From: Asaia siamensis
GTDB taxonomy: Bacteria; Pseudomonadota; Alphaproteobacteria; Acetobacterales; Acetobacteraceae
DNA: 64,000 nucleotides
Assembly (NCBI RefSeq): GCF_014635085.1
Contig: NZ_BMCH01000001.1
Span: 279,151-343,150, forward strand
Direction: 5' to 3'
The notes beneath the pieces are model-generated. The model was not told the origin of the DNA and made no database searches. It saw nothing but the letters and a program-made list of their open reading frames with translations. The position numbers were made by a program, and so were the translations under genes. Shown one piece after another: positions 21,515 through 25,224 of this stretch (positions are counted from its first letter, which is position 1; each line of letters begins with the position of its first letter).

Positions 21515-22099
21515 TCAGAAAACCGAGTCGGCAGAGTGTGTGGCTTCCTCCGGCTTTTTCATTGCGGCGATGGCATAGAGATAGCTTGCAGCTGTTGCTG
21601 CGGCGATTGCACAGACCTGCAACCCGGATGGTGTAAAGAGGTAGGCGAGGTAGCAAAGGACAGTGCGCAGGATGAAGTGAATGAATCCAGCCCTGTCATC
21701 GGCGCCCCAGCCATGGGGGACCCATACCATCCCGGACAGAATGGCAAGGCCCAGCACGAGCAAGGCAGGGTTATGTGCCGCACGGGCTGCCAGGATGACA
21801 AAGGGGATCAACAGCCCTGTGACGGTTATGAAGCGCATGAAGAGCTGCAGAATTGGATTATGCCGATTGTCTGGCTTGAGACCGGTATTCCCACGCATTC
21901 TGTCGATGAGAAGGGCAAGGGGCACCGGGATTGACGGGACGAAAAACACGGCGATCAGAGGCAGTCTCGCCCCCATGAGAAAGCTCGCCACCGCAAGCGT
22001 TGCCCATGAAATCAGCCCCGCAACCGGCATGGCCGTCGTGCATCCTTGCAGATACTCCCTGCGCAACGCGGAAAGAGGTCTCTCTGATTCGTTCGACAT
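21515..22099 (-). CDS. Uncharacterised multi-pass membrane protein
   Basis: A product of 194 residues with about six hydrophobic segments and a hydrophilic start (MSNESERPLSALRREYLQG). A distinctive motif, WVPHGWGADDRAGFIHF, lies between predicted helices near residue 140, and its His/Asp/Arg content suggests a functional site. ATG 22099 is preferred over one ten codons upstream because GGGGAA stands eight bases before it. I do not recognise the family with confidence. It is convergent with the fused permease gene and follows the AAA cassette on the same strand. Confidence 0.7.
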   Translation of the reverse strand: MSNESERPLSALRREYLQGCTTAMPVAGLISWATLAVASFLMGARLPLIAVFFVPSIPVPLALLIDRMRGNTGLKPDNRHNPILQLFMRFITVTGLLIPFVILAARAAHNPALLVLGLAILSGMVWVPHGWGADDRAGFIHFILRTVLCYLAYLFTPSGLQVCAIAAATAASYLYAIAAMKKPEEATHSADSVF

Positions 22100-22303
22100 G
22101 GCATGTTCCCCGCGCTGCAAGGAGAGCATTCTGCCTCTCAGGACGACGGCGTCGAAGAGCGTTTCGCTACGAAAACGAGGGAGAAAGGATCACAATATCC
22201 CGATCATACAGGCTGCGGTCTGCCGGTCCTGACCGCCCTTCTGTGCCGCTGGGACGAATCCCGGCAGGCAAAAAAAGGATAGGCTCAAGAGATCAGGAAA
22301 GCT

Positions 22304-22342: not shown

Positions 22343-23296
22343 TCAGGGGGCCGAAGGGTCGCGCGCCAGATCCGGGGAGACCGCCATATTGCCGACATCG
22401 CGCATCATGCTCTGGCGAAGGAGAGGGACCCAGCGCGACAGCCAGCGATCCGTCTTGCGGATAAACTCATCAGCCGCAGGGACTTGAGCGAGCGCGGCCT
22501 TATCCCAATAAGGAAGAGGCGCCAGAAGCTGGACCGTGCCCGGCTTTGTTGGAGCAAGCAGATAGGTGACGGCAGAGCTTCCCTTGGTGGCATCGGTTGC
22601 ACCGCTGCTCAGTATCCAGTTGGCGACGACAAACAGTGAAGGCATCGGGAAGCCAAGGGCACTCAGGCGCTTGAAGGCGATCTGGATCAACTCGTCAGAC
22701 GAAATTGCGCCATTTGGCCCCATTACGGCATTGGCGACAAAGGCGCATTCGTTCCGGCCATCCGGGCGGTCGGAGTAGATATGGGAGGCGTAATTCCGGT
22801 CGTCATGGCAATGGGACGTGGCAGCCTGAACGACATCCAGGGGAAGCTGCTCGGTTGCCGTGCGGGCAATCATAACTCCGGTGACAACGCCCCGATCGGT
22901 CCGTACCAGTATATTGATCAGCATAAGGCCGCCCGGGCCGAACTGCCCCGTCAGCACCGGATGCCACACACCAGCAGGCAAGGGCAGGGTGTGTCCGCCA
23001 AATGGGATCGTGCCGGTAAGTGCTGTCGTGATGTCAGGTGTTATCAGACGATTGGTGTTATCAACCGGGGCATCCGGTGCTGGTGCGCCCGATCCCGGAG
23101 CGGCGGGCTGATTATCAGCAGAGCTCGCACTCGGTGCGCCCGGGCGTTGCATTCCGGGTATGCGCTGCAGCCAAGGAGCGTGTGACAGCATCCACGGCAT
23201 TGGGAAAAACAGGCTCATGATCGTGAAGAAGACCATGAGGTAGATCATGGAACGCCAGACAGGAGCGCGGCGCCAGAGGCGGGTAAAGGCTGACAC
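22343..23296 (-). CDS. Bitopic membrane protein of unknown family (AAA cassette, third gene)
   Basis: The 317-residue product has one N-terminal membrane helix (about 15-37) after a basic start (RLWRRAPVWR), giving an N-in topology with a large periplasmic part. Residues 50-80 are an Ala/Pro/Ser-rich linker. The domain from about residue 85 starts TALTGTIPFGGHTLPLPAG, includes two cysteines about 25 residues apart (SHCHDD and NECAF) that could form a disulfide, and ends in an amphipathic tail. No catalytic motif is recognised. It lies 21 bases downstream of the AAA+ ATPase gene, so co-expression is likely. The function is unknown. Confidence 0.72.
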   Translation of the reverse strand: MSAFTRLWRRAPVWRSMIYLMVFFTIMSLFFPMPWMLSHAPWLQRIPGMQRPGAPSASSADNQPAAPGSGAPAPDAPVDNTNRLITPDITTALTGTIPFGGHTLPLPAGVWHPVLTGQFGPGGLMLINILVRTDRGVVTGVMIARTATEQLPLDVVQAATSHCHDDRNYASHIYSDRPDGRNECAFVANAVMGPNGAISSDELIQIAFKRLSALGFPMPSLFVVANWILSSGATDATKGSSAVTYLLAPTKPGTVQLLAPLPYWDKAALAQVPAADEFIRKTDRWLSRWVPLLRQSMMRDVGNMAVSPDLARDPSAP

Positions 23297-23317
23297 TGGT
23301 GATAATCCCGCCTGGGC

Positions 23318-24586
23318 TCAGGGTGCTAGACGCGCATTGAGGGATGCGGAATCATCCGCGATCTCGGCCTTGACGCCATCGCTTTCCATGACAAGGCGCA
23401 CGAGCTTGGCGTTGTTCTGTCGTGCAAGAATCAGGCTTTCGCTCACCATATCCTCGATCGAGCGGACAAGATCGCGTGCGGACGCGCCTGCGCCCAGCTT
23501 CTGCTGACGCTGCATCAATTGGAAGAGCAGATGGGCGTCGATACCGCCTGCCTCGACGTTGAGGCCATAGCCCTTGATCATTGCTTCGATTTCCAAGGCA
23601 GCAACGCGGGCAAGATCGAGATCGCGCAATTGGCGGAATACGAAGATCCGGTCGAGGCGGTTGAGCACCTCAGGGGCAAACCCGGCCTTGCGAAGGGCCT
23701 CAGTCGATTCCGCGCGCATTTTATCAGCATCATCATGAAGGCGATCCGCGATCTCGGTCAGGGCTTCGGTCGCGATGTTAGACGTCAGCATGAAGATGGC
23801 GCGTGTGGTCGAAATCTGGGCGCCAGTCGATGCCTCGGTTACGTGACCGTCGTTCCACGCCGTCAGGAATTTCTTGAAGACGTCAGGATGAGCTTTCTCG
23901 ATCTCGTCCAGAAGAACGATCGCATCGGGCTTCTCCTGCAATCCGCCTGTCAGCTTGCCGAAACTGTCCGAGCCGACATAGCCCTTTGGCGAGCCGAAAA
24001 GCATGGTGGCTGCGTGAGGGCTCGACATCTGCGTCATATCGAAATGAAGGAGCGGGCGATCCATCTGACGGGCAATCTGCTTGGCAAGGTAGGTTTTGCC
24101 AGTGCCTGGCGGCCCTGCGAGAAGGAAGATACCCACGGGTTTGTTGCGGACGGTAAGCGCCAGCCTGCGTCGAAGCTGCTGGGCGATATCCTCGCAGACC
24201 TGGTCCTGCCCGACCACTTTTGCCCTCAGGCCGGCCGCAAGCTCTTCTGCATTGATGGCGACCTCTTTCTGCTCCTGTGCGAGCAGATCCTCAAGGGCGA
24301 CGCGGTTTGTCAGGCGGGCCAGAATATCCATAACGAAACCTTTGCGACGGCGGAGCCCCTTGCGGGCAAGTTTTGCGGAACGAACTTCATAAAGAAGCCC
24401 GGAAATGGTGAGGAGAGCGGTCAGACCGACGATGGGAGGATACGCGTCACGCGCCCAGGAAAGGAAGTGAATCAGCATCCCGCCCGAAAGATGCAACGAC
24501 ACGGCCGCCTGGATGCTGGCGAGGATGAGAAAGATCACCATCATGACGGGCATGAGGCGATTGAGGGCGGGCATCAGCGCTTTCAT
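23318..24586 (-). CDS. Membrane-anchored ClpB-like AAA+ ATPase (AAA cassette, second gene)
   Basis: A 422-residue protein. Two N-terminal membrane helices (about 12-32 and 48-66) are followed by a basic stretch (KLARKGLRRRKG) and a single AAA_2 module like the D2 ring of ClpB/ClpA. It has Walker A GPPGTGKT (158-165), the aromatic pore loop KGYVGSD (about 201-207), Walker B IVLLDEIEKAHPDV (about 223-236), sensor LTSN (267-270) and the arginine-finger box PEVLNRLDRIF. There is no Clp N-domain, M-domain or LGF/IGF-type protease-docking loop, so it looks like a protein-remodelling motor fixed to the inner membrane and not a ClpP partner. It overlaps the preceding gene by four bases. Confidence 0.84.
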   Translation of the reverse strand: MKALMPALNRLMPVMMVIFLILASIQAAVSLHLSGGMLIHFLSWARDAYPPIVGLTALLTISGLLYEVRSAKLARKGLRRRKGFVMDILARLTNRVALEDLLAQEQKEVAINAEELAAGLRAKVVGQDQVCEDIAQQLRRRLALTVRNKPVGIFLLAGPPGTGKTYLAKQIARQMDRPLLHFDMTQMSSPHAATMLFGSPKGYVGSDSFGKLTGGLQEKPDAIVLLDEIEKAHPDVFKKFLTAWNDGHVTEASTGAQISTTRAIFMLTSNIATEALTEIADRLHDDADKMRAESTEALRKAGFAPEVLNRLDRIFVFRQLRDLDLARVAALEIEAMIKGYGLNVEAGGIDAHLLFQLMQRQQKLGAGASARDLVRSIEDMVSESLILARQNNAKLVRLVMESDGVKAEIADDSASLNARLAP

Positions 24587-25224
24587 TGTACGATAACGTC
24601 CAGAACGATCTGCTGGTCAAGGCGGGCCAGAGTGGGAAGAACCTGGGGGCCGAGCGCGGTCAGGATTCCCGTTTGCAGACCGCCTGCCGGGGGTGGGGTT
24701 ATGGGGGTGATTGTGACTTCACCTGCAAGATAGATCGGCAGGACAACCGCCTGAAGTTCGGGTTTCAGCATCAGTTTTTGCGTTATGCCCCCTGAAGTGA
24801 TCGACACTGTCTGTCCCGGTATCCCGGCAATCTGGGCAATCGGCATCCTGACGAGCCGCATGCGCCGGTTTTTCACTGCGGCAAGAATCTCTGTTTTCTG
24901 CTGGCCGTCGAAACCCGACCGGGCGAGCGCCGCAGGAGCCTGCCCCGCTCCAATGAGCGCGAACTGCGCCCCAAGATGGATGGCATCGGCCCGTATCTGG
25001 GGTTCGGCAGCTTCAACGGGGCCCGCTGCACGCGAAGGCTGAAGCCCGGCAGCTGAGCCTGAGGATGCGCTATGCCAGTAAGCACCGCCCATACACGCCA
25101 TCACGATAGCCGAAGCCATGACGAGCTTGGGCACCATGCTGCCGCGCTCGTGGGCATGCTGATGGCGTCCGCCATCATCGCCGTGAGTGAGCGGTTTGAG
25201 TTGTGGCTCGGGCGTATCGTTCAT
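24583..25224 (-). CDS. Bitopic membrane protein of unknown family (AAA cassette, first gene)
   Basis: A protein of 213 residues from ATG 25224 (a TTG directly precedes it). The N-terminal 30 residues are hydrophilic and His-rich (DDGGRHQHAHERG). One helix (about 33-50) follows, then a periplasmic domain with a small beta-rich C-terminal half containing GIPGQTVSITSGGITQKLML and PITPPPAGGLQTG. No family or active site is recognised. Its stop overlaps the start of the AAA+ gene (24583-24586), implying translational coupling. It is divergent from rimP. Confidence 0.72.
   Translation of the reverse strand: MNDTPEPQLKPLTHGDDGGRHQHAHERGSMVPKLVMASAIVMACMGGAYWHSASSGSAAGLQPSRAAGPVEAAEPQIRADAIHLGAQFALIGAGQAPAALARSGFDGQQKTEILAAVKNRRMRLVRMPIAQIAGIPGQTVSITSGGITQKLMLKPELQAVVLPIYLAGEVTITPITPPPAGGLQTGILTALGPQVLPTLARLDQQIVLDVIVQ

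Follow-up and report, generated by a model that had tools for sequence, protein, structure and literature searches.

Positions 22,343 to 25,224 of a 64,000-nucleotide stretch of Asaia siamensis DNA (contig NZ_BMCH01000001.1; the whole stretch is called the window) carry a cassette of three genes, named A, B and C, in which a membrane-anchored AAA_2 ATPase encoded by B is flanked by two bitopic proteins, A and C. In several lineages of the Acetobacteraceae, motor motifs of B and gene A appear to have been lost together while C was kept, which suggests that the motor and A work together. On the basis of sequence comparison, we propose an inner-membrane threading machine in which A would need the active motor, C would dock by its anchor and substrates would be pulled inwards in an FtsH-like manner, and we give this reading a probability of about 0.45.

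Loss of motor motifs and of gene A

Motor motifs were compared in an alignment of 48 B proteins from the family, 47 from a genome search and one from genome G070, whose decayed B was absent from the search result and was found by reading beside C. None of the 43 B proteins sitting with A has lost Walker A, Walker B, sensor 1 or the arginine-finger box, and their pore loop is GYVG in 42 cases and KGFVG in the other (G048). B occurs without A in G061, G116, G136 and G158 according to the search, and in G070 by reading; the space between B and rimP in these five genomes is only about 290-350 bases, leaving no room for A. All five B proteins lack the pore aromatic and have another residue in place of the Walker A threonine. 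Walker B is altered in each as well, with the aspartate lost in G116, G136 and G061 and the glutamate lost in G061 and G070, and sensor 1 is changed throughout, its asparagine being lost in four and kept in G116. The arginine of the arginine finger is lost in four. C is present in all five genomes with its anchor kept.

On a NusA and RimP tree of 29 rows, the window's and those of 28 out of the 47 other B-bearing family genomes, the A-less state needs four changes, three of which are forced by the starred branches. The changes are read as losses because A is present outside the family. A relative of the same genus with an intact B was available for G116 (G029) and for G158 (G101). The earlier note on this DNA had treated the two flanking proteins as like partners, and this does not hold throughout: A is missing where the motor has decayed while C is kept, and outside the main group some B genes have no A, and the C-position protein can carry another outer domain. 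From the repeated coupled loss it can be suggested which partner relies on ATP-driven threading, and a direct genetic prediction follows for those acetic acid bacteria that are tractable.

No interruption is seen in the decayed B genes, which remain full-length open reading frames (ORFs). Third-position changes prevail in the decayed pair G136-G061, and in this one pair C is better conserved than B (61.2% against 51.9% identity), the reverse of the order in four motor-intact pairs. Both the full-length B retained with C in five genomes and this reversed order speak for a regulatory scaffold, in which B would mainly be a membrane platform stabilising C, with the ATPase as an added control tied to A. 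That reading is quite unlikely, given that the motor motifs are kept almost without exception where A is present and that the order is mixed in pairs of one intact and one decayed member, C lying above B in G029-G116 (57.1 against 53.3%) and below it in G101-G158 (42.6 against 51.0%).

Several observations weigh against the threading machine or against the coupled loss on which it draws. Motor decay is uneven: all five A-less B proteins retain the Walker A lysine, and the B of G158 also has both Walker B acids, in swapped order, and the arginine of the arginine finger. When the labels on the tree were shuffled, 127-129 of 500 shuffles were as low as the observed number, with no clustering of labels; this fits scattered losses and adds no proof. 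Genome reduction is a confounder because the five A-less genomes are all small (1.9-2.3 megabases), yet G029, G032, G046, G118 and G170 are equally small (1.9-2.2 megabases) and keep A and the motifs. In G101, B is intact and A is truncated, and frame breaks occur in B and C of G126. Four of 15 loci outside the family group (L126, L129, L131 and L132) have no match to A. Finally, the direction of pulling is taken from the polarity of HSP100 motors and from analogy with FtsH.

Gene layout and the motor module

The ORF list of the window confirms the trio A-B-C on the minus strand (Table 1). The layout described in the earlier note, three same-strand genes with an overlap of four bases and a gap of 21, is borne out by the ORF coordinates: the last base of A is 24583 and the first of B 24586, in an ATGA overlap, and B ends at 23318, 21 bases before the start of C at 23296. 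The start of A is the ATG at 25224 or an alternative TTG one codon earlier. A promoter scan found 0 candidates against 1.0 in shuffles, and a terminator scan found 4 against 2.9. In comparisons with four relatives, the ratio of nonsynonymous to synonymous substitution rates (dN/dS) was 0.016-0.042 for B, 0.059-0.204 for C and 0.126-0.324 for A, values that are rough because dS exceeds 1. Together with the conserved order of the genes, they indicate that the trio is no chance arrangement.

Table 1. Features of the cassette, in coordinates of the window.
Feature	Coordinates	Strand	Basis
Gene A, bitopic protein, 213 amino acids	24583..25224	-	ORF, family profile
Gene B, membrane-anchored AAA_2 (HSP100 D2-type) ATPase, 422 amino acids	23318..24586	-	ORF, Pfam, NCBIfam, motifs, tree
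Gene C, bitopic protein, 317 amino acids	22343..23296	-	ORF, family profile
B membrane hairpin, residues 11-70 (second helix sub-threshold in window B)	24377..24556	-	Hydropathy scan
B Walker A GPPGTGKT, residues 158-165	24092..24115	-	Alignment
B pore loop KGYVG, residues 201-205	23972..23986	-	Alignment
B Walker B VLLDEIEKAH, residues 224-233	23888..23917	-	Alignment
B arginine-finger box NRLDRIF, residues 309-315	23642..23662	-	Alignment
C anchor motif LWRRAPVWR, residues 7-15, juxtamembrane, followed by membrane helix	23252..23278	-	Alignment, pattern
C residues 163-184, bounded by two invariant cysteines, presumed periplasmic domain	22745..22810	-	Alignment

B matches AAA_2 (PF07724) with 125.4 bits (E = 3e-36; Pfam gathering score 27), which places it in this superfamily, and the alignment also identified sensor 1 (LTSN) and a sensor-2 stretch (GASARDL). 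The AAA_2 module with Walker A and B, GYVG and the arginine-finger box that had been read from the window is thus upheld by both Pfam and the alignment. Membrane helices were called by a simple hydropathy scan with a threshold of 1.6. Two N-terminal helices, as previously described for B, were detected in five of seven B proteins scanned; the window B passes the threshold for the first only (2.39, residues 11-29; the second, residues 50-68, scores 1.43), and the B of locus L128 for the second only. No Clp N-domain was found among the 25 of 39 Pfam matches listed for B, which has only 422 amino acids, and no [LIVM]G[FLM] tripeptide lies between sensor 1 and the arginine finger in any of the seven B proteins tested, in agreement with the absences first reported. 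Two B genes show irregularities that may be decay or assembly error: in G165 (L048) a frame break leaves the C-terminal end missing from the same frame, and in G126 (L036) B starts out of frame and both B and C contain frame breaks.

Distribution and gene order

The searches of 200 family genomes recovered 47 with B (E up to 1e-60), 55 with C and 43 with A, counts that are lower bounds because the top few candidates were scored per genome. All 43 genomes with A are among the 47 with B when the lists are compared by eye. C occurs in all 47 and additionally in G011, G038, G049, G063, G070, G076, G081 and G156; on reading, G070 carries the decayed B, G049 is cut by a contig end and in the other six a C-like domain is part of other proteins. 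Of 385 genomes drawn from the class, two gave a B, one being the window's own and the other also a member of its family; of 299 drawn from the phylum, the window's own was the single one. The best 80 loci in a scan of named genomes comprise 54 in or near the Acetobacteraceae group, 15 outside it at 50-61% identity and 11 proteins that have the usual length of a Clp protein and neither A nor C. The outside loci belong to Burkholderia, Collimonas, Dyella, Allorhizobium, Mesorhizobium, Variovorax and several metagenome-assembled genomes, one labelled Roseomonas. Follow-up in three outside groups recovered B in 1 of 245, 3 of 249 and 2 of 147 genomes, with the query's own genome counted. Taken together, these counts indicate a cassette that is frequent among acetic acid bacteria and occurs seldom and sporadically in other groups.

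Profiles made from Acetobacteraceae only (39 rows for A, 37 for C) were searched against 2285 six-frame ORFs of the 15 outside loci and a Microvirga locus. The A profile matched 11 ORFs, each directly upstream of B (E = 3e-18 to 1.5e-9), and no others at E ≤ 0.01. In these 11 loci the C profile matched the ORF that immediately follows B (E = 1e-28 to 5e-8), and it gave weaker matches in L129 (1e-6 and 1.5e-4), L034 (1e-5) and L132 (2e-4), of which L034 and L132 share only the anchor with C on reading. When the two halves of each family were compared profile to profile, the probability was 98.7 for A and 99.8 for C. The joint occurrence of the three genes expected from the window is therefore seen both in the family counts and in 11 of the 15 outside loci; homologues with neither A nor the C domain were looked for and form a minority among the loci seen (for example L126, L131, L159 and L160). 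Matches of A and C to a described secretion or conjugation component were likewise sought, and none was found in Pfam, NCBIfam, PHROGs or PADLOC.

The setting beside rimP, noted earlier for the window, recurs in 27 of 37 family loci, and the other loci have differing neighbours. An anti-phage defence module would fit the patchy distribution outside Acetobacteraceae and the matches of B to the AAA parts of the PADLOC models PDC-M37B (E = 4.5e-24, 83 bits) and DolB (E = 1.8e-22, 78 bits). These scores cover the AAA module only and lie below that of the ClpB model (169 bits), A and C have no PADLOC match and, in the family loci examined, the cassette usually adjoins rimP, all of which makes a role in defence extremely improbable.

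A plasmid or conjugation origin was rejected on the matches in a plasmid collection and on the Microvirga neighbourhood. Among the 60 of 2125 plasmid matches listed, the best for B is an orphan in Microvirga (49.7% identity), and the other 59 (about 29-40%) bear names of the Clp, ClpK or TssH type, are called 'hypothetical protein' or lie where no feature is listed. Neither the window's C nor that of L128 had a match in this collection. No annotated transfer gene was present in the 41 kilobases read around the Microvirga gene. On that plasmid (L034:19752-21192), what comes after the orphan B is a short ORF that has a C-like anchor but lacks an outer domain. In the window, a gene for a DUF7010 membrane protein (21515-22129; Pfam E = 1.2e-12) lies between C and the importer genes; among the 37 family loci it was matched in L052 and, as two pieces, in L055.

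The bitopic proteins A and C

By its sequence, C is modular, with a shared anchor and an exchangeable outer domain. In 44 of 48 family loci, and in 11 of 19 elsewhere, B is followed by a match to the strict pattern LWxRAxxWR and a membrane helix; several loci that fail the pattern have a near variant by eye. L129, L132 and the Microvirga locus L034 have the anchor with an outer domain that differs or is absent. At L129:4900-6100, two C-position frames in tandem carry a C-like anchor and an outer domain that by eye resembles that of L126 and L132 and not that of the window's C. The end of the C-position protein in L126 (GDxV ... C.YVP or CHLVP) is likewise, by eye, similar to that in L129 and L132.

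Two cysteines are invariant in a 43-row alignment of C, which omits L129, L130, L133 and L134, and also in one of 15 rows, three of them stand-alone copies. The N-termini of the stand-alone copies were read by eye as signal peptides or, in L174, as a lipobox. The domain of C is placed in the periplasm because of these N-termini and the two cysteines, which lends support to the location suspected in the earlier note. Stand-alone C domains in Acetobacteraceae were seen at L163:6229-7872, L166:5713-8006, L165:4928-6919, L169:6125-7069 and L174:5205-6050; some are in tandem, and no adjoining A or B was seen.

The scan found one N-terminal membrane segment in the window C (1.73), and none at the threshold in the C of L137. 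A has a short N-terminal tail, one helix at about residues 30-48 (1.64) and a C-terminal domain at about residues 120-213, so that the single helix previously assigned to each of A and C agrees with the scan of the window proteins. The charges flanking the helix of A leave its topology unsettled, and its large domain is perhaps on the periplasmic side. A shortened A beside a B with kept motor motifs (L068:6371-6847, in G101) is possibly an early stage of coupled decay. In L159 and L160, both of the order Hyphomicrobiales, B stands behind a different small membrane protein of 161 amino acids, and L160 is near integrase-like and zeta-toxin-like genes by eye.

A and C define two protein families for which no convincing match turned up in any library searched. 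Neither window protein matched a Pfam or NCBIfam family. Pfam scans of alignment members gave no match for 49 A proteins and, for 43 C proteins, one weak DUF6611 match in one member (E = 0.0061); nine outside C-position proteins gave two weak matches, both below the cut-off. A PDB profile search returned four chance-level matches for A (best E = 0.5) and nothing for C, and PHROGs and PADLOC gave no match for A or C, whether from the window or from L128. Unusual L,D-transpeptidases are reported from Acetobacteraceae (PMC10727944). This identity was considered for C and dropped, since no histidine is invariant in either C alignment.

The architecture of A and C bears on a second explanation, a force transducer in which the ATPase cycle of B would be relayed across the membrane to A and C and would remodel a periplasmic target, such as a passage in peptidoglycan or an outer-membrane part. 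GspA-GspB and TonB-type systems are models for such an arrangement. The exchangeable outer domains would suit it, as would the long Pro/Ala/Thr-rich stretch seen by eye after the helix of C in outside loci, and A and C evolve much faster than B, as is often the case for envelope-facing parts. We consider it rather unlikely: the pore loop, conserved almost without variation in the motor-intact family proteins, points to threading of a polypeptide, and A and C have no match to a known cell-wall-binding or secretion family.

Proposed mechanism

In the threading machine proposed here, B would form an AAA+ ring, presumably a hexamer, held by its N-terminal helices on the cytoplasmic face of the inner membrane, and a polypeptide would be threaded through its GYVG pore. 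As with FtsH, substrates from the inner membrane or envelope would be pulled into the cytoplasm, to be let go unfolded, with no built-in or ClpP-docked protease. In ClpB, substrate enters on the side of the first ring, and in B the membrane anchor takes the place of that ring. Extraction or remodelling of membrane-associated substrates is suggested by this polarity, which puts the anchor on the entry side, together with the retained pore and the lack of a protease or docking loop. A would be a bitopic adaptor or a target on the pathway of the motor, as the coupled loss suggests. C would dock on the membrane part of B through its LWxRAPxWR anchor, a placement suggested by that anchor and by the retention of C beside a dead motor, and would present an exchangeable periplasmic domain that may be useful even then. 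We infer who touches whom, the substrate and the periplasmic side of A.

The opposite direction was also weighed. In an export motor, a dedicated substrate would be pushed outwards by B, either through A and C or alongside them, which would accord with C, and perhaps A, facing the periplasm. No shared substrate gene was seen by eye beside the cassette, the neighbours varying between lineages, and the anchor is on the side where HSP100 motors take in substrate; export is very unlikely.

No description of such a cassette was found in the literature searched, and text searches within PMC12041372 and PMC8602642 brought up nothing relevant to it. Going beyond the threading machine, we tentatively suggest, with some doubt, that the cassette represents an undescribed inner-membrane class of HSP100, in which a fixed motor would take interchangeable bitopic modules through an LWxRAPxWR-like anchor and would repeatedly have become a dead-motor scaffold once A was lost. 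If true, it would be a natural system to separate the motor from the scaffold function of an AAA+ ring in the bacterial envelope.

Comparison with known systems

The best NCBIfam match of B is the ClpB model TIGR03346, over B residues 85-403 and profile positions 533-848 of 853 only, and its 169 bits fall far short of the curated 1232.1. The same holds for ClpA (TIGR02639, 164.7 against 993.15 bits), TssH/ClpV (TIGR03345, 145.5 against 884.95) and FtsH (TIGR01241, 21 against 600). The best PHROG, phrog_4871 'ATP-dependent protease' (203 bits), covers the AAA module and the C-terminus only. A branch of 100/100 separated 20 B proteins from 10 second rings of Clp, ClpE and TssH; the placement of TssH and Microvirga in this tree is unsure because the branches are long. 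On this evidence, B is a membrane-anchored AAA_2 ATPase that forms a clade apart from the ten Clp-type D2 rings; as judged by the curated scores, its motor belongs to the AAA_2 superfamily yet stands outside ClpB, ClpA, TssH and FtsH, and the distinction drawn in the earlier note is sustained.

B shares its motor module, pore loop and arginine finger with the second ring of ClpB and ClpA (HSP100 D2). ClpB has two AAA+ rings with N- and M-domains, partners of ClpP carry an [LIV]G[FL] loop between sensor 1 and the arginine finger, and HSP100 motors are usually soluble. In contrast, B has a single ring, a membrane anchor, no N- or M-domain and no ClpP loop found, and lies in a separate clade. TssH/ClpV of type VI secretion has the HSP100 D2 module in common with B and falls on the Clp side of the tree. 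Torsins resemble B as ClpB-related single AAA+ proteins at a membrane with bitopic partners, namely LAP1 and LULL1, and the torsin family PF06309 matches B residues 105-187 at a borderline 27.4 bits (cut-off 27), overlapping the much stronger AAA_2 match. Unlike B with its two-helix N-terminal anchor, torsins are eukaryotic proteins of the endoplasmic reticulum lumen. FtsH, which has a zinc protease at its C-terminus and the bitopic partners HflK and HflC, is like B in its N-terminal membrane anchor before one AAA+ ring, whereas B belongs to another AAA subfamily and has no protease domain among the Pfam matches listed, and A and C match no family. A membrane-fixed HSP100 with two dedicated membrane-anchored partners would add a route for the removal or remodelling of inner-membrane proteins besides FtsH.

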